Source: Icerya purchasi (taxonomy: Eukaryota > Arthropoda > Insecta > Hemiptera > Monophlebidae). Taken from it: a stretch of 64,000 nucleotides of DNA. A program made the translations under genes and the position numbers. The notes under the pieces were generated by a model. The model was not told the origin of the DNA. It ran no database searches and saw nothing but the letters and a program-made list of their open reading frames with translations. The stretch is from assembly GCA_039619475.1 (NCBI GenBank), contig CM077116.1:252574440-252638439 (forward strand). Direction: 5' to 3'. Positions 16,848 to 59,286 of the stretch are shown in pieces; the first letter of the stretch is position 1; each line of letters starts with the position of its first letter.

Positions 16848-17341
16848 TAATATGATAATTTATAAATATTATATTTTAAAACCCTTAAATTACGTTACAA
16901 ATGTTATATACAATTTTTATATATTGCACGGACACAGAGTACCTTTCAATTCATTAAAACATATAACTTTATTTATATTAAATTATTAATTAAATTAAAA
17001 TACAAGTTTAAAAAACATAATTAATTCACAAAAATATATATATATAAAATTCGTCCTACCGGTTTCGTCCATGAATATGTCAAGTAGACGAAACCGGTAG
17101 GACGAATTTTATATATATATATTTTTGTGAATTAATTATGTTTTTTAAACTTGTATTTTAATTTAATTAATAATTTAATATAAATAAAGTTATATGTTTT
17201 AATGAGTTGAAAGGTACTCTGTGTCCGTGCAATATATAAAAATATATAACATTTGTAACGTAATTTAAGGGTTTAAAATATAATATTTATAAATTATCAT
17301 ATTATCGAGACAAGCGATTACAGGAAGAAATAACACATAAT
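16848..17341. mobile_element. Fold-back element, 494 bp, with 12-bp target duplication
   Basis: AAATATCTTACG occurs at 16836-16847 and again at 17342-17353, directly flanking the element. Inside, the left arm (about 16848-17069) and right arm (about 17083-17306) are near-perfect reverse complements around a roughly 13-bp centre, so the transcript could fold into one long hairpin. The right end has an unpaired tail of about 35 bp. Each arm carries GACGAAACCGGTAGGACG near the centre (see hammerhead-like motif). No protein is encoded. A long target duplication fits target-primed reverse transcription better than a cut-and-paste transposon. Confidence 0.8.
17052..17104. ncRNA. Hammerhead-like 3' core, two inverted copies
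   Basis: GACGAAACCGGTAGGACG appears on the minus strand at 17052-17069 and on the plus strand at 17087-17104. GAAA followed by a self-complementary CCGG and then TA fits the 3' half of a type I hammerhead with a palindromic helix III. The 5' CTGATGA box is not recognisable, so activity is not implied. Confidence 0.25.
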
Positions 17342-22456: not shown

Positions 22457-25400
22457 TTCCAGCCTTAGGGCCATACTGATTACTCCAGTAAGTTCCGAGG
22501 GCCAAAACCATATTATCATTGTTGCCGGTGGCAAAAAGTGAAATAGTCCACTGCAAATCGGACTAAAGTCCGCAAAACGGCACCACTGCATATCATGGCC
22601 GTAACCAGAGGGGGGGGGGGGTTAGGGGGTCCAAACCCCCCGCGAAATGTTTTGGATTTCTTTTTTTTATTAAGAAAGAAATTACATTTGATATTTAAAG
22701 AAAAACAAATACAAATATGAATAAAATGAAAAAAAAACGTTTACTACACAAATTGAAACGCACGTGTTTAGAATTGGGCTTATGCAGCTGAGCGCGTAAG
22801 ATGCTTGCTGCTCGAATCTCGATACTCGCTCGATCGCATGCACACACACTGTATACGTACAATATAACAGAAAGGGACAGAGTGAAGATCGGCCGGCGGA
22901 AGACGTAGCGCACAGTTTTCGGTAGCTCGCCTTTCTGTTAATTTACTGCCACCGACAAGCTGCCTATAGGCAGTATAGGCGAATCTCGTTGGAAAAAAAA
23001 AGCTCGGCAGGCAGGCAGAATTTTTGTCATGTTCGGACGCGCTTGTTCGATAGATCGGCTGCGGCTCGCGCACCCGGCGGCGAAAAAAACAAATGCCTAC
23101 GCTGCAGAAAATTGATCGTGTACAGGCTGTTTTTTTCCTTTGCTACGTCGTCTATTGTAAATAACGGAAAATGAAGAAAGCGTTTTAGCAGTTGATCGTT
23201 TTTCTGTACTCTTCGTGCCTTCCTCTACTGATTGCGGTCTCATTTCCATTAATGTGTATGCGCGCGCAAAGTGCCGAAGAGTTTTTTGTTTCATTATTGT
23301 GTTAATAAAGTTTAAAGGTAACTCGAGTATTGTTTCGGTTTTTTTGGTCCAGTTTTCAAATTCATTGCTTATCTTGAATTTACTTCGTAGCTGTTATTTT
23401 AAATCGTGTTTGTGCGTGTTTACTTCCTTAAAACGTCGTGGTTGTGCCTGTTTAAGTTTATTAAACCATCTTTGTAACAGTATTTTGATTTGAATTATTG
23501 CTTTTGTGTGTGATTTAGTAGTATGGAAAAGAAGCGAAAAATTCATAGTGAATGCAGAAAATTCAAACATCAGTGGAACATTCAGTATTTCGTAATTGAG
23601 TCCAGTAACAAGGCGCTATGTTTGATTTGCAATGAAAGCATAGCCGTTCTTAAAGAATATAACATTAAACGTCATTATGAAACAAAACATTTTCAAAATT
23701 ACTCAAAATATACAGGAAGTTTGCGGACAGAAAAATTCGAAGCTATGAAGCGCGGATTGAAATCGCAGCAATCTTCATTTACAAAACTCAAAACTGAACA
23801 AGAGGCTGCAACTCGTGCCAGCTTCCGTGTGGCTCTTGAAATTGCAAAACGTGGAAAACCATTCACCGATGGAGAAATGATCAAAGAATGCATAATTACA
23901 GTAGCCGAAGAAATGTGCCCTGAAAAGGTAAATTTATTAAAAACTGTCAGTATGTCAGCAAACACTGTGGCTCGAAGGGTAGAAAACATCGCTGAAAATA
24001 TATCCTCTCAACTGTTCGACAAAAATGGACATGTTGAGTGGTTTTCTTTGGCCTTGGATGAGTCAACGGATGTGTCAGATACTGCTCAGGTGTTGATTTA
24101 TATTCGAGGGGTAGATAAAAGCTATGAAGTGCATGAAGAACTTCTTGATATGTATAGTATTCATGGCACAACTACTGGTACAGATATTTTTAAAGGAGTT
24201 GAAATGGCCATTAATCAAAAGAACCTTCGATGGAAAAACTTGAAATATATTACAACTGATGGAGGCAAAAACATGAGTGGGAAAGATAAAGGAGTGGTCG
24301 CTCTTGTGTCAAAGGCTGTGGAAAATGACGGTGGTTCAAAACCATTAGTCTTACATTGTATCATTCATCAACAGTCTTTGTGCGGAAAATGTTTGGATAT
24401 GTCTGAAGTTCTGAAACCAGTCATATCAACTGTTAATTTTATCAGATCTTTTGGGCTGAATCACCGACAATTCCAACAATTTATTGAAGAGATTGGAGAA
24501 AATGACTTGCCTTATCATACTGCCGTACGCTGGCTTAGTTGTGGGAAAGTCCTTCAGCGCTTTTTTGAACTTCGAGCAGTGATCGAGATTTTTTTGAATG
24601 AAAAGCATCGCCCTCTTACTGAATTACAAAACAACTCATGGCTGTGGAAGTTAGCATTCTATGTTGATTTGACAAAACATGTGAACGAACTGAATTTGAG
24701 ATTGCAAGGAGAAAACCAGCATCTTCCTGATTTATACACTAATATCAAATCATTCCGGAAGAAATTGATACTGTTTCAATCACAACTACGAAGTAAATGT
24801 TTTTCACATTTTAAAACATGTGAAATATTCAGCCACACCACTGAGACTGAGTTTCCTATCGATTTTGCAATCCAAACTTTGAGTGCTTTGAAAATTAATT
24901 TTGATACTCGTTTCTCGGACTTTGATGCCATTGCGAATCAAATTAAGATTTTTGAGAATCCTTTTGATACTGACATTGAAACCCTAGCCCCGGAACTTCA
25001 AATGGAAATGATTGATCTACAATGCAGTGATATAATTAAGAACCAGTATCAAAACTCATCTTTGTTGGAATTTTATAAGAGTCTTCCACTGACACAATTT
25101 GATAATTTGCATAAATTTGCTCGTGGGCTGTTTTCTGTTTTTGGTACTACTTATTTGTGTGAGAAGACCTTCTCCAAAATGAAGTACACAAAAAATGTTT
25201 ACAGATCTAAATTAACTGATCAGCATCTTAAATCTCTTTTAATAATTGGTACAAGTAAAATTAGTCCACAACTACAAACTATTGTCAGTGGAAAATCTCA
25301 ATTACATAAATCTCATTAGTATTTCATATGTCATTATAACTTATCTTTTTATTCAAAATGTATGAAATGTTGGTTCAGATTGAATATATTTAATAAAAAT

Positions 25401-25722: not shown

Positions 25723-26755
25723 CAATAAATGAGCAGGAAAAGAGGAATTCAATAAATGAAGAAATTCATTGTTGATTGCACCGTGAGAGGAGGAATTGGC
25801 TCGAAGTGGGAGAGAGGAAAATTTGATAGGCTGCCATAGGCTATTGAAGTCATGAAAGAAGTAAGGAAGAGTGTTGCAGGAAAGGACAACAGGAGAAAAA
25901 TTAGAAAGACGGGTAGCAATGAGCGACAGGACTGGGATTTTATGCGGAGAAAAACGGCAGCGGTTTTTGATATACAGATAGGAAGAAATAAGTTTGGACG
26001 AGGAGATGGGAAGCCGTTTAATTAAGAAGCGATAGCCAAGCTGAGAACGGCGAATAAACAGTGGTTGGGTAACCGACTCTGATAGAACTGCGGGAATGGG
26101 GGAGGATTTCAAGGCTCCAATGCGCAAACGGAGGCAAGACTTCTGGATCGCGTCAAGTTTAGAGAGGAGAGACTTGGAGGAATTACCGTAGATAAAGAAA
26201 CAATAGTCGAGATTAGACCGGATGATGGCTTTGAAAAGAATTAGAAGGATAAACGGATCGCCTCCCCATCTGAGGGGAGAGAGAGTTTTAAGAAGATTAA
26301 GTCTTTTAAGACAGGATTTATAGAGAAAATTAATGTGCTCATGGAATGTGAAGCGGCTATTTTAAAAAAGGCCAAGATAGCATATGGAATCGACAACGGG
26401 GATAGGAATACCAGATACAGTGATGCGAGTTAGAGCTCGGTTAAAGGGAGGAGAGAAAAAATGATACAAGACGACTTGGTAGGAGAAAGGGAGAGGTGAA
26501 GGCGAGAAAGGGAATTATTAAGAATAGACAGGGAATTATTCAACTCATCAATAGCGGCGGACAGATTGTCAGAGGTGGAATAGACCAAAATGTCGTCAGC
26601 GAAGAGGAGGTAGGAGGAAGGAATAGGAAGAGAAGGGATATCAAAAGAGTAGATATTAAAAAGTGTAGGACTCAGACAGGAACCCTGTGGGAGCCCACGA
26701 TAAACGCATCTAGAGGAGGAAAAGAAGGGAGAAGAAATAAAGAGAGTTCTGTTCA
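25715..26755 (-). pseudogene. LINE ORF2 reverse transcriptase part
   Basis: Minus-strand reading from about 26750: RTLFISSPFF, GLPQGSCLSPTLFNIYS, YLLFADDILVYSTSDNL (the FADD catalytic box is intact), LSPTKSSCIIFS, VDSICYLGL, a stop, then LLKTLSPLRWGGDP, RSNLDYCFFIYGNSS, AIQKSCLRIGALKSSPIP and finally FPAHLLIYT at the hAT boundary. This is the palm, thumb and linker of a non-LTR RT with a C-terminal RNase H. The 169-codon stretch at 25618-26127 is open but runs into hAT terminal sequence at its end. At least one stop (about 26355) breaks the frame. Confidence 0.88.
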
Positions 26756-26905
26756 GTCTTTCCTAAATAAAAAATTCACCATTGCCTCCATTGTGGACGT
26801 CTCTTCTGCCTTTGATAATGTGCATCTTCCCTCTCTGGGTTCCAAACTATTTTCTCTTAACCTCCCTCTCGTCGTCGTCATTCTCATACTCAACCTCTTC
26901 CAGAA
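26756..26905 (+). pseudogene. Inverted 5' segment of the same LINE
   Basis: On the plus strand the segment reads FLNKKFTIASIVDVSSAFD followed by NVHLPSLGSKLFSLNLP, the RT block with the first catalytic Asp (xDVSSAFDNV). In an unrearranged element this would lie immediately upstream of the GLPQGSCLSP block that here is on the minus strand. It ends at the target duplication (26906). The junction with the minus-strand part lies near 26752-26760. Confidence 0.85.
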
Positions 26906-26916
26906 TAGAAGAATGT

Positions 26917-28088: not shown

Positions 28089-28094
28089 GTTGAA
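28089..28094 (+). repeat. Left 6-bp target duplication (GTTGAA)
   Basis: Identical to 45002-45007 on the other side of the palindromic element. Confidence 0.85.
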
Positions 28095-28139
28095 AGTAGC
28101 TAATAAATGGGCGTTCTGGGGCGTCTGACGTCACCAACC

Positions 28140-28390
28140 CCTATTTGTCCCCCGGTGCTCAAAACTCACCCCAATTTGTCCCCCGGTGCTCAAAACTCAC
28201 CCCAAGTTGTCCCCCGGTGCTCAAAACTCACCCCAATTTGTCCCTCGGTGCTCAAAACTCACCCCAATTTGTCCCCAGGTGCTCAAACTTCACCCCCAAT
28301 TTATGTCCAGGTGTCCAAAATTCACCCCAATTTATGTCCAGGTGTCCAAAATTCACCCCAATTTATATCCATGCGATCAAATTTAACCCA
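28140..28390 (+). repeat. 31-bp tandem array in left arm
   Basis: Five units containing GGTGCTCAAA(A/C) and CACCCCAATTTGTCC start near 28154, 28185, 28216, 28247 and 28278, followed by three diverged units to about 28385. Further relics occur at 28470-28560. The unit has no stop codons, so all three frames stay open without being a gene. Confidence 0.9.
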
Positions 28391-29131
28391 AGTTTCCCCC
28401 CAGTTCCTCCTAGTTCCCCCCAATTTTCCTGGACAGTTCCGCTAATTCGATCCCTAATTCCCATCAAGGTAGACAAAATTCACCCCCAATTAGCGTACAG
28501 GTGCTGAAAGTTCACCCCAATTTGTATCCATATGGTTAAAATTCACCCAAGTTTCCCCAAAATTTCTTCAAATTTTCCCGATTCCCCGTTCATACTGTTA
28601 TCTGTAAATGCGCTCGCACCGTTTCCACGCATATATTCAACATAGCCTTAGCCGCTATGAAAGTGTACTCGCTTTCCCATACCCGCGCCTTCTATCATCA
28701 TATGTTTGTATTATACATGACTCTGCGTGTAATGTATACAACATAATTTTTAATTTTCATTTTTCGAGGTTGGGAGGGGTAAAATTTTGCCAGGAGTGAT
28801 AAAAACGTTTGAATCTCAACACTTAGAACCCAAAATTTAAAGGAATTTTCCGAGTCGTGCTCCGTTCCGACACTTTTTTTTTTTTTAAATTTATTTTTAA
28901 AGAAAATATTTGAACGATCCATCCATCAGTCGAATGAGAGCGGGCGAGTGTGCTGCTACGGGATGTATTATGTAAGCGCGAGCGCGGCTGTAATGGAAAT
29001 ATTTAAATGTTCAAGCAACTAGTTGAAACTGTCACCAGGTGAGGTGAATTCCAGCCATTCGTTTTGAAATTAACTATCCGATCATCTATGCACACTTTCG
29101 TGCATATTTTATTTTCGTGTCTAAGTATTAT

Positions 29132-29804
29132 TGCATCCAACTCAGTGGTCACGTACGCGAACGTTGCTGTACAAAACCACCTAGACAAGCTGGCTGAATG
29201 GGCACAGAGCTGGCGCATAATGTTTAACCCCAACAAGTGTCAACACGTCGTGTTTACAAACAGGAAAACTAGCTGTCCAGCGGTGAAAATTGGCAACGCT
29301 CAAATTCCCCAAACCAACTCGGTACGGTATCTCGGCATGTACCTGGACAGGAGACTTACTTGGCGAATACACGTGGCACAAATCAGAAGAGCCATTGCTG
29401 CTCGCGCGAAGTCACTACATCCGCTTTTGGGACGGAAGTCTGCTCTCAACTTAACTACCAAACGAATCATTTACCTTGCTGCAATCGCTCCCATTTGGCG
29501 CTATGGAATTGAATTGTATGGAAGTACTTGTAAAAGCAACCTTCGAAGAATTCAACAGCAGCAGTCCAGGATACTCCGCACTATCACGTCTGCTCCACCT
29601 TACGTGTCCAATTTGACGTTACATAATGACCTCAGGGTCCCATATGTCAGTGATGCACACATTGCACAGTACAAAAGATTGTTTGACAAATTCGAGTGTA
29701 GCAGCAATCCTGTCATCCGTAGGATGCATACGGACAGTCTTCCAGATAATCCTCCAAGGCGACTTAAAAGGAAATGGTGTCGGGATGCTATCCCGATCAC
29801 TTAA
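29132..29804 (+). pseudogene. Jockey-like ORF2 C-terminal fragment
   Basis: The frame is open to a natural stop at 29802-29804 and reads LQNHL-like VQNHLDKLAEWAQSWRI, NPNKCQHVVFTNRK, SVRYLGMYLDRRLTWRIHV, IAPIWRYGIELYG, IQQQQSRILRTITSAPPYV and TLHNDLRVPYV. These are the thumb and C-terminal blocks of Jockey-clade reverse transcriptases. Endonuclease and catalytic RT motifs are absent because of 5' truncation. The upstream part of the open frame (29064-29131) is arm sequence, not LINE. It differs from the full-length Jockey element in the right arm, so it is a different family. Confidence 0.9.
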
Positions 29805-30048
29805 TTCCTCACTTTAAGTTACTTGCATAATAACATGTACTTATTCTTAATCACGGCACGCGTTCATTCCTATAATTGATCCTCTGAACATTCTTATCTT
29901 ATTGTGTTACTCCCTTTCCCTTCTCACAACCTAATGTCTCGCTGGAGTCATTAGATTTTATTATTATTAGTTCCTCTTCCTACAATATCGCCGTTGTTTG
30001 CAGTAAGTTGTGCTGGTATGACGTATTAAAAAAAAAAAAAAAAAAAAA
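29132..30048 (+). mobile_element. 5'-truncated Jockey-like LINE in left arm
   Basis: AAGTATTAT flanks the insertion at 29123-29131 and 30049-30057. The right arm preserves the uninterrupted site at 43996-44004. The element ends with a poly-A tail of about 21 bases or more at 30028-30048. Only the 3' 0.9 kb of the LINE was inserted. Confidence 0.93.
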
Positions 30049-31041
30049 AAGTATTATAGAATTAGCCTAAGTATACTTTTCTTTTACACTTCTGTTCATT
30101 TCTTCCGAACGTTCATAATTTTCTTATTTTATTATTTTCTCAGGTTCTAAAAATAAATCCATTGATATCTTCACTAGTATGATTGCATAAACATCTTCTA
30201 ACGGTATTCCTCATATTGTTCATAATAATTTTTCACGTCTATGTATTATGGAATTAGTCTAAAATATATTTTTTCCCCTCTAAAGTCTTTTTCCAATCGT
30301 AGGTATTCAAAAATTAATTCGAGTATATTTTTATTTAACGCTGTTTCATATTTTCCGTCTCCCCTATCCACCCTACACAAATTTAAATTCTTTTCTATTA
30401 TTTTTCATGAGTACATCCCCCTGAAACTACAGTGAAACTATACCATTTATTCCCACGCACCCATCTGCTAACAATGATTTTCTCATCATTCATAATAATT
30501 TTTTTCGAATCTGTTAGTTTAAGATTATTTCATTTTTTTTTTCAAACCCTAAGTATTTTTTTTTTTTTTCAATATCTTCCATATTTTCCCCCAATATGTC
30601 CCCATACGCTCATAATGCAAAGGTACTCTGCTTGTTTCCTTGCATGAATGTTGCTATGCCGTTGATTTCGATCATGTGTCAAGGTCATCGAGTCTGCCCG
30701 GATCTTCTCCTTCATATCTTTTGTAGAAAAACCGGTTGACATGTACACATCTACACACAAACACCCATAACCCAAAGATCACCTGTAAATTTCGTTCATC
30801 TGCGTATGTAACCAGCTTTCACCAAAGGAATGTGGTTTTTCTGGTGCAGCCCGCCCTCTTCAAAGACATGCATCGAGCTAGAATCTCGAAAGAATCTGTT
30901 CAGGCAGTCAGTATTAGTGTTACATTAAACGTGTAGAATTTGTTGAAGCTGTGTTCTTCACGCATTAATAAAAGTTTGCTCTAACGTTAAAAGTAATAAT
31001 TTTCTACATTCTTAGTAAAAAGTTAAAAATATTATTCAAAC

Positions 31042-31491
31042 ATGAATAACACTACCGATTCGATTGATATTAAAGTCGACGAATTTATTCAGAATTCATT
31101 TTCGAGTGATAGTGTCTCGCATACAACTTCATCACCTCCATCACAGCAATCAGATGATGGTTATACAGCAGAAGGATCAACATCTTCTGTACATAATATC
31201 ATTGGACCTGTATTATTATCAGAACAAGCAGATATAGCGGAATATTTTGTAGATATCAGCATCCATATAGATTGTGATTATGGTTTTCGAGTAACTGAAC
31301 TAGCAATGATTGATATGTCTGGCGGAAAGTGTTTGCATACAGTGTATAAGCCAAGCAGAGCATGGCATGCATCAAAAATGCCACATTTACAATGTTCTTC
31401 GATGAGTCATTACTTGAAAAATCCTTCATTATTTCTCTACCCCCCCCCCCAACTTGAAGTACTGATAATGATGAATATTACAAAAATCTGA
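31042..31491 (+). CDS. Small element-encoded protein, left-arm copy (149 aa)
   Basis: An ATG at 31042 follows an A-rich leader. Residues 1-60 are Ser/Thr/Asp-rich and look disordered. Residues 70-115 read EYFVDISIHIDCD, YGFRVTELAMIDM and KCLHTVYKPSRAW, a compact pattern (hydrophobic strand, KE/TEL, later KP.W) that I remember from uncharacterised proteins of insect mobile elements. The frame then crosses an 11-base C run (31440-31450) and ends 14 residues later. The right-arm copy has 12 bases in this run and ends differently, so the true C-terminus is uncertain, or the frame continues by splicing. Function unknown; an exonuclease-like fold is only a guess. Confidence 0.55.
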   Translation: MNNTTDSIDIKVDEFIQNSFSSDSVSHTTSSPPSQQSDDGYTAEGSTSSVHNIIGPVLLSEQADIAEYFVDISIHIDCDYGFRVTELAMIDMSGGKCLHTVYKPSRAWHASKMPHLQCSSMSHYLKNPSLFLYPPPQLEVLIMMNITKI

Positions 31492-33889
31492 GCCAGTTGT
31501 GTAAAGTGTACATATAATTATTATCTAATTTTCGAATATAATCCCACATAATTTGTTCATATCTTTTTAAATTAAAAAATTTTATTTTTTATTTTTTCTA
31601 TAACAAACGAATCTAACTGTTCAACTTTTTCATGTACATCACGTACATCAAGTATTTTCCACAGCTGCGTGAGTTTTCATTAATTTGTAAGTCACAACCT
31701 AAGACCTGGAGAGTTCTCTCAAATTTTTTAAAATCTTTCATAATCACATTTTTATAAAAATATGTATTAAGTGCACATGTTATTTAATATTTTTTTATTT
31801 CACAAATATTTTGTCTATGAGGTGTGTTGATCAATAGAGCAACAGGTAGAAAACCTACTAGCTTACGAGACACAGCATGTTTATAGAAAAAACGTGCTAG
31901 CATGAGCAGATCAGAGTTGCAATGTGCGAGTGAGAGACTGTATGCATGTATGTGTGCGAGAGCAACAGCCTGATTATAAAAAACGTCGAAGATACATGCA
32001 TCTATCTGTGAACAATTATCACATCAAACATAAAAAGGCAGACTAAAAGATTATTATTTTCTTTTTTCATTCATTCTCGCCACTATTACCACTCGCGCCC
32101 CACTGTCAAGACCTCTGAACATACATTACTAACCTCACCGACACTATAATATTTTTTCTCTGTGTTATTAAATTAACCCAAGTATATTTTTATTCATTTG
32201 TTACGCAAACATTTGTTCAAATCTTTCGTAATATGTCATGCACAAGCCCGCAGACACTACTCGCTTTATTACCACGAATACATCTCTTTCATTCTCACTT
32301 ATCATAACATAGTTTTTCTTGAAATTGTAAAAAAATCCTCTTTGCTCCATTCTTCCAAGGTGATTTATTTCCAAATTTCAAATCACTCATAATTATTTTA
32401 GAATCAAATTAAGTATATTTTATCATTTCCAAAAATCAATCATCTCTGTACAAGGCATTAACTCATTTTCACATCAAACATATTATTTTTTATCATTTAA
32501 ATTTTTTTCTCAATTCACAAATAGCTAACCTATAATAACATATTGTTGTAAACATACATGACGAACTCACTCCTCATAATTACATCATGAATTATTTTTT
32601 TCTTCATTTTTTTTTTACCATCATGACAAAAGCAATAGAATCACGGCATTTATGAATGTGTACACCACACGCTTCCAATAACCTATCATACATTTTTTTA
32701 AATTAGTCCAAGCATACTATTTTTTCAATAACAAAGTCGATCATACATACTTTTTTCTTCTATATAATCACTAATCTATGAAAACACTTCGTTTGTTTTA
32801 CCCATACCATAGCATTCACTCCTTTTCCCTCATGCTAACAAACTTCAAAATTTAATAATATAACACGAAATTATTCTAAATACATGTTCATGCTATTAAA
32901 ATTATTATATCAATTAATCTATATATTCCTTTTGCTCATTTCTGAAAAAAGTCCTACAACATGTTTTAAAATTAATCGAAATATACTATTTTATTACCTA
33001 AAATCAATTATTCTCCCATACAGTTTTTTCCAATCATACATAATTTTTGTTTCCCATATTGTCATTATTGCAAAGTCATACAAAACAACAACATATTTTT
33101 AATCATAATGAATCCTTCATCCCGTTCCATTCATGCTATATACCATTATCATTCATTTCAATGTTATGAAATTAGTCTAAATATACATTCATGCTAGCAA
33201 AGTTATTATCTCACCCTTTGCATTGTTCCAAAAATGATTTATTTTACATTTTTTCTTTAAATTTCCCTCATACTATTATTTTTGAAATGCAGGATGATGA
33301 ATATGATTAGAATTCTTGATTATGAAGAGAGAGACGCATGCTGAAATTGTATTGTCATTGTATATGCGGGATGATGTGTGATTGTGGGTGAGTATGCATG
33401 CATGTAAAATATATGAGTGTGTTAGTAGAAAACATCCGTTCAAGCATGAACACAGCTACAGATAGAGTTATAGAATGAGAGAGATAAAAATATATATTTT
33501 GTTATGTTTGATATGTGTATGATAAAGAGGTTAACAAAGAATAATCACATTACCTTCACAACTTAGACATTGAGTTATACCTTTGCAATATTTTATATGT
33601 GAAAGCAGTGACATTTTTTGACTCATTATAACCAATTTTCCAACATTTCTCTTCGCTTTTCCTACATTTTAATACTTTTACACTGTTTTAGTCAATTTTT
33701 GCTATTTAATGCCATTTTTCCAGTGTTTTTACCACCTTTCTCGCGATTTTCATCATTCTTTCATAATCTTTGTTAGGTTCTTTTCTTACAACTCTTTACC
33801 ATTTCGACCGTCGTTAGTGATATCCATCATTATTTATGCTTTCATTCCTTCTGCTTAATCTATGCACACATACAGCTTAGCAATCGCCG
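31492..33889. other. AT-rich inner arm with a recurring motif
   Basis: No gene is supported. A degenerate motif of the form GAAATTAgTCtAAaTATAC recurs at irregular spacing (32170, 32402, 32701, 32867, 32970, 33168; further copies at 30057, 30250 and 30310 in the outer arm), suggesting a decayed satellite-like array. The mirror lies at 35638-38050. Confidence 0.5.
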
Positions 33890-33934
33890 AAACAGTTATT
33901 GGATAATCGGGAAACACTACAAATACCTAAAAGG

Positions 33935-34690
33935 ATGAAAAATGAATCTGATGGAATAAGTGATACATCAATAATAAAACGTCATAAACTTTCTAATGAC
34001 AGTAGGAAACATGATTATGAGATTGATATTGAAAATGAAGAAGAATGTGAAAATAGTGATAATAAGTCTGGATATAAGACCATTAATATGCGTGAAATGG
34101 CTCCATTTCAAATAGATGTTGGTGAACCTGTACCAAATGATCCTGTATATGGAATACAATATAATGCTACCACTCATGAGTATATGATGGGTTCAACACC
34201 AGTTTCGTGGAATCGAAAATGTGGTGAAATTTATTTAGGAAAAGGAAGAACACTAACTAAATTTCCTTACACACCAGGACTGATTCATTTACTGATGGAA
34301 ACAAATGTTGATGAGAATAAATATACAAATAATGATTTAGCTTTGTATAAACAAATACTGGAATTTACCAGAGCTCATGTACGTGTTACTGGTGTATTAA
34401 AGGGTACTCCACTTCCTAAATACAGAAAAATAATACGTCCTCTGTTTCAATCTACAATACAGAATGTAAAAGTTTATCCAGATAAAACGAAAAAGAAACG
34501 TGCATATAGTACTGTTCGAAAAGTATATCTCGAAGACCCTCATTTCAATTATTCTGACGATCCTAATGAATTGGTTGAACGATTATTGTTACTACACACA
34601 TCTAAACAATCAGGAAATAATGGATTAGATACTGAAATTCAGATGATTGAAGAAAAGTTGGCTGAAGAAGGATATATTCAGTTAAATTAG
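33935..34690 (+). CDS. DUF8207-like protein in the unique centre (251 aa)
   Basis: The frame is open from 33881. The first ATG is at 33935, 45 bp inside the arm boundary. The N-terminal 60 residues are charged and include RHK and a Glu/Asp-rich run. From about residue 75 the protein has DPVYGIQYN, YMMGSTPVSW, IYLGKGRTLTKFPYTPGLIHLLM, YTNNDLALYKQILEFTRAHV and PKYRKIIRPLFQ. The order (YGI, short beta strands, TPGL..LL, YT..DL..YK.IL..T.AH, KY..II.P) is what I remember of Pfam DUF8207 proteins, which are frequent in arthropod genomes and linked to Maverick-like elements. The domain's function is unknown. A TTAG at 33877-33880 behind a pyrimidine-containing tract could be a 3' splice site, so an upstream exon in the left arm is possible. 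It is the only gene in the single-copy core, which makes it a candidate maintenance or mobilisation factor. Confidence 0.7.
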   Translation: MKNESDGISDTSIIKRHKLSNDSRKHDYEIDIENEEECENSDNKSGYKTINMREMAPFQIDVGEPVPNDPVYGIQYNATTHEYMMGSTPVSWNRKCGEIYLGKGRTLTKFPYTPGLIHLLMETNVDENKYTNNDLALYKQILEFTRAHVRVTGVLKGTPLPKYRKIIRPLFQSTIQNVKVYPDKTKKKRAYSTVRKVYLEDPHFNYSDDPNELVERLLLLHTSKQSGNNGLDTEIQMIEEKLAEEGYIQLN

Positions 34691-35637
34691 ACGTTTTATG
34701 GTGTAAATTATTAATTGCTGATAATGATATATTAGAATTTAACATCGAAGCATTAAAGCAAATGATTATTTTTATTGGTTATAATGAATGTCATAAAAAT
34801 TATTGAATAAATTGTAAACAATATTGAATTAAATCTTTCATTATTATTTATAATCGTATCAAATTATAAAATATAGTTAAAAGGATGTATATTCGACACA
34901 TCCAGAAATATAATGTATGAGATAAATGAAAAAAATCTTCAAAGATGTGGGAAAAATTGAGTAAAATTGTGTGAAAGTTAGTAAAACACTAGAAAAACGA
35001 TGTTAAATAACATAAATTGATGAAAAAATAGTGCAGAAAGGTCCTAAAACGGAAGAACATGTTAAGAAATAGTCGAAAATAATTAGTAAAATTGTGTGAA
35101 AGGCACTAAAATCAGCAGAAAAACGATGTGAAATAACATAAATTGATAAAAAAAAAAAATAGCGCAAAAAGGTCCTAAAACAGAAGAACATGCTAAGAAA
35201 TAATGTAAAACTGGTTACAATTAGTTAGAAGCGAGGAAAAATGATGTAATAGTGTTAAAGCATAACAGAATAGTAAAAGAAGAAAATGTTTATTACATGT
35301 CTGTGCAATGGCGAGTGAAACCATGGGCGATGGACGATGAAGTGCTGATTAAGAAACAAAGGAATGGTTACAGAGATGTTTAAAGATTTCCTTAGTGTAC
35401 AGGGTAGGTCTGTGAATGTGTTGGGAAAACGTTAAGTAAATGTCTTGGGTCTTACGGATTCTCTTATTAAACGACTGTATGATAGTCTGTTGAAGATATT
35501 AGGTGGAACCTTCAGCAGCGGGTGGGCGAATACAAAGATCATATTGATGCATTAGATCAAGCGTTCAAAGATGTGACTTTTAAATCCTAATAATCAAATG
35601 GAGATCACGATTGTGGTCCTACAACGTTCAACAGCTG
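34691..35637. other. Rest of the unique centre, no gene recognised
   Basis: After the DUF8207-like frame the centre is AT-rich. A reading fragment around 35280-35600 (plus) contains MSVQWRVKPWAMDDEVLIK and VGEYKDHIDALDQAFKDV, separated by stops, possibly a decayed second gene. Confidence 0.4.
34960..35210 (+). repeat. Two ~120-bp direct repeats in the centre
   Basis: Copies at about 34965-35079 and 35085-35205 share GTAAAATTGTGTGAAAG, AAAACGATGT.AAATAACATA and GGTCCTAAAAC.GAAGAACATG in the same order. Confidence 0.8.
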
Positions 35638-38076
35638 CGGCGATTGCTAAGCTGTATGTGTGCATAGATTAAGCAGAAGGAATGAAAGCATAAATAATGA
35701 TGGATATCACTAACGACGGTCGAAATGGTAAAGAGTTGTAAGAAAAGAACCTAACAAAGATTATGAAAGAATGATGAAAATCGCGAGAAAGGTGGTAAAA
35801 ACACTGGAAAAATGGCATTAAATAGCAAAAATTGACTAAAACAGTGTAAAAGTATTAAAATGTAGGAAAAGCGAAGAGAAATGTTGGAAAATTGGTTATA
35901 ATGAGTCAAAAAATGTCACTGCTTTCACATATAAAATATTGCAAAGGTATAACTCAATGTCTAAGTTGTGAAGGTAATGTGATTATTCTTTGTTAACCTC
36001 TTTATCATACACATATCAAACATAACAAAATATATATTTTTATCTCTCTCATTCTATAACTCTATCTGTAGCTGTGTTCATGCTTGAACGGATGTTTTCT
36101 ACTAACACACTCATATATTTTACATGCATGCATACTCACCCACAATCACACATCATCCCGCATATACAATGACAATACAATTTCAGCATGCGTCTCTCTC
36201 TTCATAATCAAGAATTCTAATCATATTCATCATCCTGCATTTCAAAAATAATAGTATGAGGGAAATTTAAAGAAAAAATGTAAAATAAATCATTTTTGGA
36301 ACAATGCAAAGGGTGAGATAATAACTTTGCTAGCATGAATGTATATTTAGACTAATTTCATAACATTGAAATGAATGATAATGGTATATAGCATGAATGG
36401 AACGGGATGAAGGATTCATTATGATTAAAAATATGTTGTTGTTTTGTATGACTTTGCAATAATGACAATATGGGAAACAAAAATTATGTATGATTGGAAA
36501 AAACTGTATGGGAGAATAATTGATTTTAGGTAATAAAATAGTATATTTCGATTAATTTTAAAACATGTTGTAGGACTTTTTTCAGAAATGAGCAAAAGGA
36601 ATATATAGATTAATTGATATAATAATTTTAATAGCATGAACATGTATTTAGAATAATTTCGTGTTATATTATTAAATTTTGAAGTTTGTTAGCATGAGGG
36701 AAAAGGAGTGAATGCTATGGTATGGGTAAAACAAACGAAGTGTTTTCATAGATTAGTGATTATATAGAAGAAAAAAGTATGTATGATCGACTTTGTTATT
36801 GAAAAAATAGTATGCTTGGACTAATTTAAAAAAATGTATGATAGGTTATTGGAAGCGTGTGGTGTACACATTCATAAATGCCGTGATTCTATTGCTTTTG
36901 TCATGATGGTAAAAAAAAAATGAAGAAAAAAATAATTCATGATGTAATTATGAGGAGTGAGTTCGTCATGTATGTTTACAACAATATGTTATTATAGGTT
37001 AGCTATTTGTGAATTGAGAAAAAAATTTAAATGATAAAAAATAATATGTTTGATGTGAAAATGAGTTAATGCCTTGTACAGAGATGATTGATTTTTGGAA
37101 ATGATAAAATATACTTAATTTGATTCTAAAATAATTATGAGTGATTTGAAATTTGGAAATAAATCACCTTGGAAGAATGGAGCAAAGAGGATTTTTTTAC
37201 AATTTCAAGAAAAACTATGTTATGATAAGTGAGAATGAAAGAGATGTATTCGTGGTAATAAAGCGAGTAGTGTCTGTGGGCTATAAATGTGTGCACGACA
37301 TATTACGAAAGATTTGAACAAAAGTTTGCATAACAAATGAATAAAAATATACTTGGGTTAATTTAATAACACAGAGCAAAAATATTATAGTGTCGGTGAG
37401 GTTAGTAATGTATGTTCAGAGGTCTTGACAGTGGGGCGCGAGTGGTAATAGTGGCGAGAATGAATGAAAAAAGAAAATAATAATCTTTTAGTCTGCCTTT
37501 TTATGTTTGATGTGATAATTGTTCACAGATAGATGCATGTATCTTCGACGTTTTTTATAATCAGGCTGTTGCTCTCGCACACATACATGCATACAGTCTC
37601 TCACTCGCACATTGCAACTCTGATCTGCTCATGCTAGCACGTTTTTTCTATAAACATGCTGTGTCTCGTAAGCTAGTAGGTTTTCTACCTGTTGCTCTAT
37701 TGATCAACACACCTCATAGACAAAATATTTGTGAAATAAAAAAATATTAAATAACATGTGCACTTAATACATATTTTTATAAAAATGTGATTATGAAAGA
37801 TTTTAAAAAATTTGAGAGAACTCTCCAGGTCTTAGGTTGTGACTTACAAATTAATGAAAACTCACGCAGCTGTGGAAAATACTTGATGTACGTGATGTAC
37901 ATGAAAAAGTTGAACAGTTAGATTCGTTTGTTATAGAAAAAATAAAAAATAAAATTTTTTAATTTAAAAAGATATGAACAAATTATGTGGGATTATATTC
38001 GAAAATTAGATAATAATTATATGTACACTTTACACAACTGGCTCAGATTTTTGTAATATTCATCATTATCAGTACT

Positions 38077-38493
38077 TCAAGTTGGGGGGGGGGGGTAGAG
38101 AAATAATGAAGGATTTTTCAAGTAATGACTCATCGAAGAACATTGTAAATGTGGCATTTTTGATGCATGCCATGCTCTGCTTGGCTTATACACTGTATGC
38201 AAACACTTTCCGCCAGACATATCAATCATTGCTAGTTCAGTTACTCGAAAACCATAATCACAATCTATATGGATGCTGATATCTACAAAATATTCCGCTA
38301 TATCTGCTTGTTCTGATAATAATACAGGTCCAATGATATTATGTACAGAAGATGTTGATCCTTCTGCTGTATAACCATCATCTGATTGCTGTGATGGAGG
38401 TGATGAAGTTGTATGCGAGACACTATCACTCGAAAATGAATTCTGAATAAATTCGTCGACTTTAATATCAATCGAATCGGTAGTGTTATTCAT
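38077..38493 (-). CDS. Small element-encoded protein, right-arm copy (138 aa)
   Basis: Identical to the left-arm copy up to the Pro-encoding homopolymer. There the run is 12 bases and the frame ends three codons later (PPPPT). The duplicated gene is read outward-to-inward in both arms, so both copies point toward the centre of the palindrome. Which homopolymer length is ancestral cannot be told. Confidence 0.55.
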   Translation of the reverse strand: MNNTTDSIDIKVDEFIQNSFSSDSVSHTTSSPPSQQSDDGYTAEGSTSSVHNIIGPVLLSEQADIAEYFVDISIHIDCDYGFRVTELAMIDMSGGKCLHTVYKPSRAWHASKMPHLQCSSMSHYLKNPSLFLYPPPPT

Positions 38494-38954
38494 GTTTGAA
38501 TAATATTTTTAACTTTTTACTAAGAATGTAGAAAATTATTACTTTTAACGTTAGAGCAAACTTTTATTAATGCGTGAAGAACACAGCTTCAACAAATTCT
38601 ACACGTTTAATGTAACACTAATACTGACTGCCTGAACAGATTCTTTCGAGATTCTAGCTCGATGCATGTCTTTGAAGAGGGCGGGCTGCACCAGAAAAAC
38701 CACATTCCTTTGGTGAAAGCTGGTTACATACGCAGATGAACGAAATTTACAGGTGATCTTTGGGTTATGGGTGTTTGTGTGTAGATGTGTACATGTCAAC
38801 CGGTTTTTCTACAAAAGATTTTTTTTTTTTTTTTTTTTTTTTTTGCCAAATTGCTCCTAGCTGATAACAGCTATCTGGCAATTTTAGTATTAGAGCGTAA
38901 CATTGAGTAGCACTCTATCCAGCGATAGGTGCAGAAGATTACTTTTCCTTTTTG

Positions 38955-41615
38955 TTAGGCTAAGTCCATCGGCTTGACTCTGTCAAGCCGCCGAACTTCC
39001 ATCGAATTATCCAACAATACGATCGCTAAGTAATTTGGATGTATCTCCAGTCTGCTAGCATACTTTTTTGCATCATTAGTTATTACTTCTAGCACGGTCT
39101 TGATTTTTAGATCTTCATGTAGTGTTAAGTTGGTGATATACCACGGAGCATTGACTATCATTCGAAGGATTTTATTCTGTATCCGTTGGATGATCGCTAT
39201 ATTGCTCTTTTTCGAGCAGCCCCATAAGGGGCAACCGTACCGCCAAATTGGCTTTAGGATTTGAGCGTATATTAATAGTTTATTTTCAGGAGATATTTCT
39301 GATTTTCTGTTTAATAGCCAGTACATTTGCTTCAGTTTTGCATTTAGTTCGATCCGTTTTGCTGTTATGTGTTTCTTCCATGTTAATCTTTGGTCGAGAT
39401 ACATACCAAGATATTTTACATCTGTGTGTTGTGGAACTGGAACATCATTCAGGATTATATCTTCCGTTGGCACAATTCTTCTGTTAGTAAAGATTACTCG
39501 CCTTGATTTGCTTTCATTAGTTTTAATCTTCCATTGGCTAAACCACGATGAGAGTTCAGTAACAGCTTCTTGAATGGTGTTACGCGCTTTAACCGGGCAT
39601 ACATCCGAGCATAAGATCGCGGTATCATCAGCAAATGTTGCTACCTGCACGTTGGAGGGCGTAGGAATATCTGACGTGTATATGAGATAGAGTAGTGGCC
39701 CCAGCACACTTCCCTGCGGAACGCCTGCTTTTATCGGATATATATCTGATGAGTCATCTCCATACTTCACAAAGAAGTATCTTTCGTGTAAGTATGACCA
39801 AAGTAATTGATATATTTCATGGGGAAAGTGACGTTTTATTTTGTGTAACAGACCGTCGTGCCAGACTTTGTCAAAAGCCTGGCTTATATCTAAAAACACT
39901 GCGTCACAGTACTTTTTCCCTTCGAGGGATGCCTCTATAGTGTTAACTATGCGGTGCACTTGTTCTGTTGTACCGTGCTTAGCTCTGAAACCGAACTGAT
40001 GTTCCGGTATTAACTCTTTGTCGTTAATAATTGGCATTAACCGCTTCAGCAACAGCTTTTCATAAAGCTTAGAGACTACGGACAGCAAGGAGATGGGCCG
40101 ATACGAGTCCGGTTCTGTCGGTGGTTTAAGCGGTTTCTTAATGACGATAATTTGTGACAGTTTTAGCTGTATCGGAAAATACCGTAGCCGGAGCATCGCA
40201 TTGAAGACATATGTCAGAAATATAAAACCTTTTCTGGACAATTCCTTTAAAATCCGTGCCGTAATTAAGTCATAACCCGGAGATTTATGCGGATTTAAAG
40301 TTTTTACTAAGTTATTAATTTCCCCCGGAGATGTGAGTTTTATTGGTTTAGAAACATCATAACAGTAAGCATCAGGGGTCAGCGTTGAATTTCCAGGATA
40401 TGGCTGAAATATGTTTGCGAAATGTTTTGCAAAGACTTCTGCTTTTTCTGAGTCCGTTTTAGCCCAAGTTCGACTTGATTTTCTTAACGGATGCACCGCA
40501 TGTACAGGTCTTTTAAGATTTTTTGTTATTTTCCACAACGAGTAGTCATGTTGCGGCAGGGGCGATAGATTTGTTAACCTTTGTTTTAAGGATTTGTTTT
40601 TTAAATCTTGCAATAATTTCTTTAAAAACTTCGTCTGCTTATTTAATGCTGTTTTATGGGTAGGGTTTCTCGATAATTGCCATTGTTTTCTCAGTTTCCG
40701 TTTTAACTGGACCGCTTTTTTAATTTTATCTGGATAATAGATAACAGGCTCATAACCTCTTTCCTTTGGTGTGGATTTCCACGCAGCTCGTTGTATGACT
40801 TTAATGAAGTATTCTACCGCTTCATCTATTTGTTTTGCAGTTTTCAGCGGTATTTTAACGTTCATTGTACGTTCAAGCTGCTCTCGAAATGCATCCCAAT
40901 CTGTGAATTTATTATGGAGTTTTGGTTTCCGCATTTTTCTAACTATATGCTGACTAATTGTTAGTGTAACCGATGAATGATCTGATGACAATATTTCGTC
41001 AGTCCTAACATCAATAAATGGGGATGAAATTCCTTTTATTATGAAGAAGTCCAAGAGATCCGGTGTTTTATTAAGGTCGGTTGGCCAATAAGTAGGTGTT
41101 CCCGATGAATAGACCATGCTGTATGTTTCGTCCATGGATGATTTTAATTCTTTCCCTCTGGGCACTGTCAGTCTTGACCCAAAGTGAATATTTTTCGCAT
41201 TGAAATCTCCTCCTACAATGTATCTGTTACCTAAAGTTCTGAAGAAGTCGGTAAAATGTTTTTTTTTTATAATATGCCTCGGAGGGCAGTATACTGCTGA
41301 GAGAGTAATATTTTTATTTGGACCTTCAGTGATTACTACACTGGTCGCTTGTAGGTAATTGAATTTATATTTGTTCAGTTCATAGTGTTTTATATTACTT
41401 TTTATTATAACACCAGTGCCACCGTGTGCTGTATTATCTGGATGATTTGTATAATATGAATTGTATCCCGGGAATGTAATATGTCTTGTGTTAGTGAGAT
41501 GTGTTTCAGATATTAGAAGCGCATCAATATTGTTTTGCAAAATGTACATTTGTATTTCATCGATATGATTAAGAACACCGTTAGTGTTCCAGGTAACTAT
41601 TTTTAAATTCTTCAT
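38955..41615 (-). CDS. Jockey LINE ORF2: endonuclease-reverse transcriptase, 886 aa
   Basis: This enzyme nicks chromosomal DNA and copies the LINE RNA at the nick. The N-terminal APE-type endonuclease shows VTWNTNG (residue ~8), ISETHL (~36), GGDFNAKNIHFGS (~134) and SSDHSSV (~208). The reverse transcriptase follows with KSPGYDLI, YRPISLLSVVSKLYEKLL, HQFGFRAKHGTTEQV, AVFLDISQAFDKVWHDGLL (first Asp), AGVPQGSVLGPLLYLIYTSD, the catalytic FADDTAIL, NESKSRRVIF and KYLGMYLDQRLTWKKHI. The Jockey C-terminus (WRYGCPLWGCSK, ILRMIVNAPWYITN, TLHEDL) completes it. No RNase H is present, as usual for Jockey. The start codon overlaps the stop of ORF1 in an ATGA (41612-41615), suggesting reinitiation after ORF1. 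Length is normal for the clade and every catalytic motif is intact. Confidence 0.96.
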   Translation of the reverse strand: MKNLKIVTWNTNGVLNHIDEIQMYILQNNIDALLISETHLTNTRHITFPGYNSYYTNHPDNTAHGGTGVIIKSNIKHYELNKYKFNYLQATSVVITEGPNKNITLSAVYCPPRHIIKKKHFTDFFRTLGNRYIVGGDFNAKNIHFGSRLTVPRGKELKSSMDETYSMVYSSGTPTYWPTDLNKTPDLLDFFIIKGISSPFIDVRTDEILSSDHSSVTLTISQHIVRKMRKPKLHNKFTDWDAFREQLERTMNVKIPLKTAKQIDEAVEYFIKVIQRAAWKSTPKERGYEPVIYYPDKIKKAVQLKRKLRKQWQLSRNPTHKTALNKQTKFLKKLLQDLKNKSLKQRLTNLSPLPQHDYSLWKITKNLKRPVHAVHPLRKSSRTWAKTDSEKAEVFAKHFANIFQPYPGNSTLTPDAYCYDVSKPIKLTSPGEINNLVKTLNPHKSPGYDLITARILKELSRKGFIFLTYVFNAMLRLRYFPIQLKLSQIIVIKKPLKPPTEPDSYRPISLLSVVSKLYEKLLLKRLMPIINDKELIPEHQFGFRAKHGTTEQVHRIVNTIEASLEGKKYCDAVFLDISQAFDKVWHDGLLHKIKRHFPHEIYQLLWSYLHERYFFVKYGDDSSDIYPIKAGVPQGSVLGPLLYLIYTSDIPTPSNVQVATFADDTAILCSDVCPVKARNTIQEAVTELSSWFSQWKIKTNESKSRRVIFTNRRIVPTEDIILNDVPVPQHTDVKYLGMYLDQRLTWKKHITAKRIELNAKLKQMYWLLNRKSEISPENKLLIYAQILKPIWRYGCPLWGCSKKSNIAIIQRIQNKILRMIVNAPWYITNLTLHEDLKIKTVLEVITNDAKKYASRLEIHPNYLAIVLLDNSMEVRRLDRVKPMDLA

Positions 41616-43168
41616 TTTTTATTAAGTAAAGCAGTTGTAATAGTCTGTATAACATTGTTAAGCACCTGATTTTGCTGTTGCATCATTTCAAGAAAAAGGG
41701 TTTTTATTTCAGTTAAGAATGTATGTAGCATTGTTGCAATGTCATTATTATTACTGTCATTGACTTCAGAAGTTCTATTTATTTCTCGTTTATGCCGCTG
41801 TCCTGCGATTTGCGCATAAGTCAAGCGCTGTGTTGAATTAAGACCTTCAGTTTGATTTGTCTCTGTATGTTCTTGGAGACCGGAAGGGGGCAAATGTCTG
41901 GAGTTTGCGTATTTGTCTAATGTATTGTTTCTACTTTTTACTGCATGTTGCTGGTGATTTCTGATATTTTGCAGCTTTTTATAGACGGCACATCCTTTAT
42001 AATTTGATGGATGATCTCCATGACAATTGGCACATTTTGGTGTTTCGTCCCGTTTTTTATTACAATTGGTGGATGCATGGTTATTACCACATTTGATACA
42101 TGCATACGCCCTGTTACAATAGGTTTTAGTGTGGCCATACCTTTGGCAGCGAAAACACTGAGGGATAATATTCTTTTTATGCGGAGATTCTATCTTAACT
42201 TTCATATGAAGTAATGTTTCAATTTTGTATATATCAGAATTGTTTTCGTGCGGTTCGAGGTCTACAAAGAATAATGGTAAGGGTTGCTTAGTTACCCTAT
42301 GCTTGATATTAGTTATATGCCTAATTTGGTGTCCATTTTCTTCTAGGGCAGTCTTGATATCATTTATTTCTACCGAGTGATGTAGGTGTCGGATTACTAC
42401 CCGAAAGCTTCTTTCAGATTTAATTTGATATGTGTGATGTTCTATTTCTTCCTGACGTAGATATTTAACTAGTGTACGATAACTGTCTATACTGTTTGAT
42501 TTAATTTCGACTCTTTTGTCTGTTAGGGATCTGCAACGTATGTCACCAGTTGGGATGACGCTGGCAATATCTGACAACATTTTGGTATAATCTACTACTC
42601 CATAAATTGTTATAGCAGGAGGTTTTAGTTCCTTTTTGTGCTGTGTAGGTTCTATATCTTCGTTCTCGCTAGAATCATCAGATGCCAAGCAAGCAAACCT
42701 GTTTTTATTTTGCTTAAGTATCTTTTTCTCTACTTGCTCCGAGGAAACACTTCTAACGTATTCTCTTTGCCTTTTCCTCTTATTTACGATCTCTTGCCAG
42801 CTGTGGTCTTTTACTTGAATATTGTCAGTTTGCATGGAGGCTTGCAGCGAATAATTTTCCTCTGTTGGGATAGGAGATAATACATTGGTATAAACAGATT
42901 TCGGTTTATCTAACGATCGGTTTTTTTTTGTATTTGTATTTATTTTATTGTTAGAATTGTTAGTATTATTATTTTTCGTCACATCACCGTTAGTGCATGC
43001 GAACGGAGGTAAAGGAACGAACTCACCGCCGGTTTGCATTGAGCCGTCATTTTCTGTGTCAGGATTTTCGGAAGCATTATGTGTGTAATGATGCGATGAG
43101 GCAGCAACATCTTCGATTTGTCGGTTGTTATCCGATTTACGGTTTAGAATAGGCGAGCGCATGACCAT
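41612..43168 (-). CDS. Jockey LINE ORF1: gag-like RNA-binding protein, 518 aa
   Basis: ORF1 proteins coat the LINE RNA and form the nucleic-acid particle. Residues 1-190 are polar and low-complexity. Residues 190-340 form the PRE_C2HC-type/RRM-like region typical of Jockey gag proteins, with ITIYGVVDYTKML, RSFRVVIRHLHHS and PLPLFFVDLEPHENN. Three zinc knuckles follow from about residue 345: CFRCQRYGHTKTYC (CX2CX4HX4C), CIKCGNNHASTNC and CANCHGDHPSNYKGC. The C-terminus (about 460-518) has the hydrophobic pattern of a helical segment. The ATG at 43168 lies 167 bp from the element's 5' end. The stop overlaps the ORF2 start. Confidence 0.93.
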   Translation of the reverse strand: MVMRSPILNRKSDNNRQIEDVAASSHHYTHNASENPDTENDGSMQTGGEFVPLPPFACTNGDVTKNNNTNNSNNKINTNTKKNRSLDKPKSVYTNVLSPIPTEENYSLQASMQTDNIQVKDHSWQEIVNKRKRQREYVRSVSSEQVEKKILKQNKNRFACLASDDSSENEDIEPTQHKKELKPPAITIYGVVDYTKMLSDIASVIPTGDIRCRSLTDKRVEIKSNSIDSYRTLVKYLRQEEIEHHTYQIKSERSFRVVIRHLHHSVEINDIKTALEENGHQIRHITNIKHRVTKQPLPLFFVDLEPHENNSDIYKIETLLHMKVKIESPHKKNIIPQCFRCQRYGHTKTYCNRAYACIKCGNNHASTNCNKKRDETPKCANCHGDHPSNYKGCAVYKKLQNIRNHQQHAVKSRNNTLDKYANSRHLPPSGLQEHTETNQTEGLNSTQRLTYAQIAGQRHKREINRTSEVNDSNNNDIATMLHTFLTEIKTLFLEMMQQQNQVLNNVIQTITTALLNKK

Positions 43169-44734
43169 AACGGTAGTTTACGCAGAAAGCAGAGATAACA
43201 AATACCGGCTTGCTGATAAGCAAGCCGATCACTGTACCGTACTTACGATAATTATACGCGATTAGAATGTAAATACTGTCAAGAGCAATTGAACGCGAAC
43301 AATGAACAATAACCCGAAACATTAAAACGTATTTTAAAAGATATGAAGGAGAAGATCCGGGCAGACTCGATGACCTTGACACATGATCGAAATCAACGAC
43401 ATAGCAACATTCATGCAAGGAAATAAGCAGAGTACCTTTGCATTATGAGCGTATGGGGACATATTGGGGGAAAATATGGAATATATTGAAAAAAAAAAAA
43501 TATTTAGAGTTTGAAAAAAATTAAATAATCTTAAACTAACAGATTCGAAAAAAATTATTATGAATGATGAGAAAATCATTGTTAGCAGATGGATGCGTGG
43601 GAATGAATGGTATGGTTTCACTGTAGTTTCAGGGGGATGTACTCATGAAAAATAATAGAAAAGAATTGAAATTTGTGTAGGGTGGATAGGGGAGAGGGAA
43701 AATATGAAACAGCGTTAAATAAAAATATACTCGAATTAATTTTTGAATACCTACGATTGGAAAAAGACTTTAGAGGGGAAAAAATATATTTTAGACTAAT
43801 TCCATAATACATAGACGTGAAAAATTATTATGAACAATATGAGGAATACCGTTAGAAGATGTTTACGCAATCATACTAGTGAAGATATCAATGGATTTAT
43901 TTTTAGAACCTGAGAAAATAATAAAATAAGAAAATTATGAACGTTCGGAAGAAATGAACAGAAGTGTAAAAGAAAAGTATACTTAGGCTAATTCTATAAT
44001 ACTTAGACACGAAAATAAAATATGCACGAAAGTGTGCATAGATGATCGGATAGTTAATTTCAAAACGAATGGCTGGAATTCACCTCACCTGGTGACAGTT
44101 TCAACTAGTTGCTTGAACATTTAAATATTTCCATTACAGCCGCGCTCGCGCTTACATAATACATCCCGTAGCAGCACACTCGCCCGCTCTCATTCGACTG
44201 ATGGATGGATCGTTCAAATATTTTCTTTAAAAATAAATTTAAAAAAAAAAAAAGTGTCGGAACGGAGCACGACTCGGAAAATTCCTTTAAATTTTGGGTT
44301 CTAAGTGTTGAGATTCAAACGTTTTTATCACTCCTGGCAAAATTTTACCCCTCCCAACCTCGAAAAATGAAAATTAAAAATTATGTTGTATACATTACAC
44401 GCAGAGTCATGTATAATACAAACATATGATGATAGAAGGCGCGGGTATGGGAAAGCGAGTACACTTTCATAGCGGCTAAGGCTATGTTGAATATATGCGT
44501 GGAAACGGTGCGAGCGCATTTACAGATAACAGTATGAACGGGGAATCGGGAAAATTTGAAGAAATTTTGGGGAAACTTGGGTGAATTTTAACCATATGGA
44601 TACAAATTGGGGTGAACTTTCAGCACCTGTACGCTAATTGGGGGTGAATTTTGTCTACCTTGATGGGAATTAGGGATCGAATTAGCGGAACTGTCCAGGA
44701 AAATTGGGGGGAACTAGGAGGAACTGGGGGGAAA

Positions 44735-44957
44735 CTTGGGTTAAATTTGATCGCATGGATATAAATTGGGGTGAATTTTGGACACCTGGACATAAATTGG
44801 GGTGAATTTTGGACACCTGGACATAAATTGGGGGTGAAGTTTGAGCACCTGGGGACAAATTGGGGTGAGTTTTGAGCACCGAGGGACAGATTGGGGTGGG
44901 TTTTGAGTACCGGGGGACAAATTGGGGTGAGGTTTGAGCACCGGGGGACAAATAGGG
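44735..44957 (-). repeat. 31-bp tandem array in right arm
   Basis: Mirror of the left array with four instead of five canonical units and several private substitutions. Confidence 0.9.
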
Positions 44958-45001
44958 GTTGGTGACGTCAGACGTCCCAGAACGCCCATTTATTAGCTAC
45001 T

Positions 45002-45007
45002 GTTGAA
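45002..45007 (+). repeat. Right 6-bp target duplication (GTTGAA)
   Basis: Identical to 28089-28094. Confidence 0.85.
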
Positions 45008-59170: not shown

Positions 59171-59286
59171 AGATACTAATTCTTTGATCGGCGAAGTCGA
59201 CAACCACGCATATTCTTAATATTGAACTTGGCTTCCACTTTTAAAATTAATGTTTTTGATGGGATTTGAATTAATTTTGTGTAAAG

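Follow-up and report, generated by a model that had tools for sequence, protein, structure and literature searches.

A transposon insertion that is symmetric in all but its core poses two questions: which enzymes moved it, and how did it become a palindrome? The insertion studied here, between positions 28095 and 45001, spans 16.9 kb of the window, i.e., the whole stretch of 64,000 nucleotides of Icerya purchasi DNA that was analysed, and has matching ends (AGTAGC...GCTACT). The terminal sequence AGTAGCTAATAAATGGG begins at 28095 and its reverse complement finishes at 45001. A sequence-only reading of this DNA had described perfect inverted termini of 17 bp, a 6-bp target duplication, GTTGAA, and arms of about 4.85 kb around a 1.75-kb core. 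We recovered the termini, but their perfect inverted match covers the first 26 nt rather than 17. The duplication is present immediately outside both of them, and the lengths hold: net of inserts, the arms measure 4,878 bp (left) and 4,848 bp (right), and the core 1,748 bp. The parts of the element are, in order:

28089-28094, no strand: left copy of the target duplication GTTGAA, abutting the left end
28095-29131, + strand: outer part of the left arm, beginning with AGTAGC; pairs with 43996-45001
29132-30048, + strand: 5'-truncated non-LTR retrotransposon, a later insertion, with poly-A and target duplication AGTATTAT
30049-33889, + strand: inner part of the left arm; pairs with 43336-44004 and 35638-38819
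33890-35637, + strand: single-copy core
35638-38819, - strand: inner part of the right arm
38820-43335, - strand: longer non-LTR retrotransposon, a later insertion, with poly-A and target duplication TCTTTT
43336-45001, - strand: outer part of the right arm, ending with GCTACT
45002-45007, no strand: right copy of the target duplication GTTGAA, abutting the right end

Within the inner arms, 30049-30722 pairs with 43336-44004, and 30716-33889 with 35638-38819. Each arm thus carries one later non-LTR retrotransposon, with its own poly-A and its own target duplication. The left one retains the tail of an RVT_1 reverse transcriptase domain (E 0.00012, under the Pfam cut-off), and the right one has both ORF1 (PRE_C2HC) and ORF2 (endonuclease and RVT_1, the latter at 5.5e-39). 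These insertions account for 5.4 of the 16.9 kb and lie outside the palindrome proper; with both removed, the element measures 11,474 bp (about 11.5 kb as inserted).

A palindrome of this kind could be produced by the assembly, if reads, or both haplotypes of one arm, were joined in inverted orientation, and the arms are indeed 99.5% identical and differ by insertions, as two haplotypes could. A false join would not, however, give a symmetry that stops exactly at AG..CT ends, followed by a non-palindromic 6-bp direct duplication and unrelated flanks, and each arm has a separate retrotransposon with a target duplication of its own. The independent insertions in the two arms, together with the target duplication outside them, make an assembly product very unlikely, to the point of being barely credible.

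The ends are specific to the element within the window. With up to three mismatches allowed, the terminal 17-mer matches two sites only, which are the element's ends, where 0.15 matches are expected, and none of 100 shuffles contained two. An unfiltered screen for inverted pairs with a 6-bp duplication was non-discriminating: it returned at least 2,794 rows, dominated by AT repeats and palindromic 6-mers, and the rows listed include false 6-bp duplications from self-complementary 6-mers within the arms. GTTGAA differs from its own reverse complement. The palindrome therefore cannot have generated it as a by-product, and the symmetry truly ends there. Just inside the termini, both arms contain tandem repeats:

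28137-28364, + strand: subterminal 31-bp tandem repeats at the left end, 7.3 copies
44763-44959: right counterpart of these 31-bp repeats, 6.3 copies

Neither the terminal 26-mer (in prokaryote genomes) nor a 24-mer of the 31-bp unit (in IMG/VR) had any match. The terminal 17-mer does occur in three IMG/VR contigs, which have no further similarity to the element (blastn and tblastx, E 0.001), and we attribute these matches to chance. The octamer TGACGTCA, which we take to be a CRE-type site, occurs about 30 bp inside each end (28126-28133 and 44963-44970). There is a third copy at 446-453, and about 0.7 copies are expected per window from base composition, so the presence of the octamer near the ends may be due to chance.

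Which family makes such ends? Intact vertebrate Mavericks produce 6-bp duplications and most commonly end in (AGT)2//(ACT)2 or (AG)3//(CT)3 (PMC8097293). The pair AGTAGC//GCTACT matches the first of these at five of six positions, the motif being vertebrate-derived. About 0.5% of random 6-mers match the motif at five or more positions (19 of 4096, counted by hand), and about twice as many if (AG)3 is allowed. The element thus has in common with Polintons/Mavericks the 6-bp target duplication, five of the six end-motif positions, and terminal inverted repeats (PMC8097293, PMC6431247, PMC6035795). The end motif and the 6-bp duplication point to a Polinton integrase. We class it as an element with Polinton-type ends that was most likely mobilised by Polinton enzymes.

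Long inverted repeats also exist outside Polintons, and the element could be a long-TIR non-autonomous member of another superfamily that makes 6-bp duplications. One example comes from Galileo, of the P superfamily, in Drosophila willistoni: copy 112 consists almost only of TIRs (4,246 and 4,680 bp in 9,021 bp), with tandem repeats within them and no transposase-coding segment (PMC4168063). Our element resembles this copy, which has lost its transposase, in being nearly all TIR and in having tandem repeats inside the TIRs. It differs from Galileo in its AG..CT ends, its two orphan ORFs, and its 6-bp duplication, since Galileo in D. willistoni makes 7- or 8-bp duplications (PMC4168063). The duplication length thus argues both against identity with Galileo and against this family as the other superfamily in question. 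The groups with 6-bp duplications that we found in print, IS3EU and GingerRoot, share that length with our element, but their ends are TA..TA, occasionally TG..CA (PMC10045372). Ends of AG..CT rule out identity with these groups and weigh against the wider alternative, which we consider unlikely. Copy 112 is nevertheless a close architectural precedent in another superfamily. Non-autonomous elements with long TIRs are already known; the present one has Polinton-type ends.

The coding content of the element bears on whether it could move by itself. The open reading frames of note are one in the core and one that is present in both arms:

31042-31491, + strand: left copy of the arm ORF, 149 aa, only probably coding
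33935-34690, + strand: core ORF, coding, 251 aa when counted from its first ATG
38077-38493, - strand: arm ORF as it stands in the right arm, 138 aa, with a C-terminus that differs from that of the left copy

The core ORF is coding beyond reasonable doubt: its frame length was reached in none of 1000 dinucleotide-preserving shuffles of the core, and A and T together occupy 83% of its third codon positions, C only 4%. The arm ORF is only probably coding, as its frame length was reached in 20 of 1000 inner-arm shuffles, and its right copy has a different C-terminus because of a 1-bp difference within a run of C. Past the end of the core ORF, at 34955-35202, the core contains 1.9 copies of a roughly 131-bp tandem repeat.

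Pfam contains no match for the core protein up to E = 1, and no relatives of it turned up in IMG/VR, NCBIfam, PHROGs, or phage records. In a set of 5.8 billion proteins it has none at E 0.001, with residues 70-251 giving none even at E 10, and its single row among PDB sequences (E 0.26) is at chance level. The arm ORF has no relatives in Pfam, NCBIfam, the large protein set, or IMG/VR, and its lone PHROG and PDB rows (E 0.21 and 3.1) are also at chance level. The searched collections seem poor in animal sequences, so that this silence says little about animal relatives. Single-sequence structure models, made without an alignment, were too poor to use (mean pLDDT 49.7 for the arm ORF and 40.5 for the core protein). 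No tRNA or Rfam match was found in the window.

Overall, none of the 31 ORFs scanned in the arms and core has a Pfam match. This set comprises the core and arm ORFs (E 1) and 29 pieces of at least 50 aa (E 0.1), of which 28 are all the remaining ones of that size in the core and the left inner arm, while the last lies in the outer arm. The outer 1 kb of the arm is thus represented by one piece, and the right arm by its left counterpart. Among these 31 ORFs, Pfam reveals no protein-primed PolB, RVE integrase, protease, ATPase, or capsid gene, and the element differs from Polintons in having no recognised gene of these five kinds. It is therefore not an autonomous Polinton.

These results can be set against the remaining claims of the sequence-only reading. 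It had noted almost no Polinton genes, and indeed none is recognised in the element (0 of 31 ORFs with a Pfam match). It had called the ends and the 6-bp duplication Polinton-type, which agrees with five of six positions of the vertebrate motif and with a duplication of the right length. It had also held the inverted repeats to be far longer than is usual in Polintons, and the arms are in fact 3.4 times the vertebrate Maverick maximum of 1,447 bp. Its proposal of one small protein per arm stands as to the ORF, present in both arms, with coding status only probable. By contrast, its description of the core protein as DUF8207-like was not reproduced: there were zero Pfam matches up to E = 1, in a Pfam copy that may omit DUF8207, and the literature search found no paper naming that family. 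The protein search with the core gene that it proposed returned zero relatives in Pfam, NCBIfam, PHROGs, IMG/VR, and the large protein set. Of its suggestion of a non-autonomous or novel Polinton-derived lineage, the non-autonomous appearance is borne out (0 of 31 ORFs), whereas descent from a Polinton is not, no Polinton gene or relative having been found, nor is a lineage, a single copy having been seen.

The orphan proteins raise the alternative that the element is complete and of a kind not yet described, with the core protein, alone or together with the arm protein, acting as recombinase or as the DNA-binding part of one. In favour of this, the core ORF is a long, uninterrupted, clearly coding frame without a match to anything known. 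Against it, the 251-aa product has no recognised domain and no sign of a catalytic core, the structure model (mean pLDDT 40.5) being too poor to judge, and an animal protein may be missed in collections of mainly microbial and viral sequences. We regard this alternative as highly improbable.

No Polinton gene, autonomous relative, or second copy was seen; the assignment to Polintons is carried by the ends by themselves, and several points count against it. One of the six motif positions differs, and the motif is a vertebrate one. Nothing in the core protein can be recognised as related to a Polinton protein. The net length of 11.5 kb falls short of the range for intact vertebrate Mavericks (12.7-24.6 kb), and the arms of 4.9 kb contrast with TIRs of 46-1,447 bp (mean 402) in these elements (PMC8097293).

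How did the arms come to be so long and so alike? They differ by 25 mismatches in 4,857 aligned bases (0.51%), by one 31-bp tandem unit, and by small indels. Three mismatches lie at 33890-33894, immediately beyond the arms' inner edge, and the remaining 22 fall into three patches, at 28121-28238 (5), 30187-30659 (12), and 32157-32250 (5), with mismatch-free tracts of about 1.0, 1.5, and 1.6 kb between and after them. In 20,000 random placements of the 22 mismatches, the summed length of the three longest clean tracts was never reached, and the longest tract alone was reached 68 times. The mismatches are thus clustered; the test excludes indels, one of which (1 bp, at 31439) lies within a clean tract, the others being in the patches. 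Such patchy identity is expected from arm-to-arm gene conversion or from tract exchange with other copies, and the latter could equally account for it, which is a point against conversion within the element. In either case, the divergence of 0.51% is only a lower bound on age. The left arm (28095-33889) has an excess of C over G on the + strand (GC skew from -0.05 to -0.41 in five pieces), the core has a skew of opposite sign, and the right arm mirrors the left.

The explanation that we favour, with slightly better than even confidence, is a non-autonomous DNA transposon with Polinton/Maverick-type ends, in which end-copying repair made the palindrome and gene conversion homogenised the arms. 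An integrase from an autonomous Polinton elsewhere in the genome would have recognised the AGTAGC ends in trans, with the 31-bp subterminal repeats perhaps serving as extra binding sites, and insertion with a 6-bp stagger would have duplicated GTTGAA. The palindrome would have formed through recombination repair in which one end of a larger parent served as template for the other. This copying would have run inward far beyond the original TIR, taking the arm ORF along, and most of the parent's interior would have been lost. Later gene conversion between the arms may then have removed most differences and left the three unconverted patches.

There is precedent for such TIR growth in Galileo, whose TIRs lengthen by recruiting internal sequence in copies that have no transposase (PMC3573991, PMC4168063); the proposed mechanism is recombination repair that copies one end onto the other (PMC3573991). 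In the latter study, the longest-TIR Galileo copies have no transposase ORF, and expansion of inverted repeats in Polintons is stated as reported, citing three references including a 2007 review (PMC3573991). By analogy with Galileo, it is plausible that most of the element's length was converted to inverted repeat, as the sequence-only reading had it. Among the matches listed, a literature search of titles and starts of abstracts, covering few subscription journals, found no further kilobase-armed or palindromic non-autonomous Polinton, which is weak evidence of novelty.

A different origin within the Polinton family would be snap-back, in which a displaced strand folds and is copied during protein-primed linear replication, so that both ends derive from one parent end. 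The defective palindromic genomes of adenoviruses arise in a comparable fold-back fashion. All but the 1.7-kb core is symmetric, which a single fold-back gives in one step, and Polinton-type ends imply a protein-primed replicon (PMC6431247). Yet the element has no replication gene (0 of 31 ORFs), the unique core and the patchy arm differences are equally expected from repair, and one literature search for such a mechanism returned no paper, a second listing four candidates. We consider snap-back distinctly improbable. About as doubtful is the broader proposal of a standing family of palindromic, satellite-like mini-Polintons that arise by snap-back of a protein-primed genome and are replicated and inserted by a helper Polinton. 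Such elements would have shed everything but their ends, a single orphan gene in each arm, and another in the core, and each insertion would be an integrated record of protein-primed genomes making defective palindromes.

If the Polinton assignment holds, the element is a non-autonomous Polinton whose arms exceed the longest TIR in the published vertebrate set more than threefold. The spread of Polinton ends without their own enzymes would become testable, as would growth of inverted repeats by repair versus protein-primed replication. In the host genome, two 4.9-kb arms 1.7 kb apart would also be likely to undergo gene conversion and inversion and to give rise to hairpin RNA.

The rest of the window contains other traces of mobile elements. 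A 601-aa open frame (23514-25316, + strand) with zf-C2H2_12 and hAT dimerisation domains probably encodes a transposase of the hAT type or represents a gene that descends from such a transposase. There are two retrotransposon remnants on the + strand, at 26445-26915 (a weak RVT_1 match, E 0.0033, under the Pfam cut-off) and at 62317-62844 (an RNase H fragment, E 4.8e-7). Two smaller inverted pairs are also present, one at 16913-17243 (157-nt arms, 99% complementary, 17 nt between them) and one at 58576-59185 (243-nt arms, 91% complementary, 124 nt between them).
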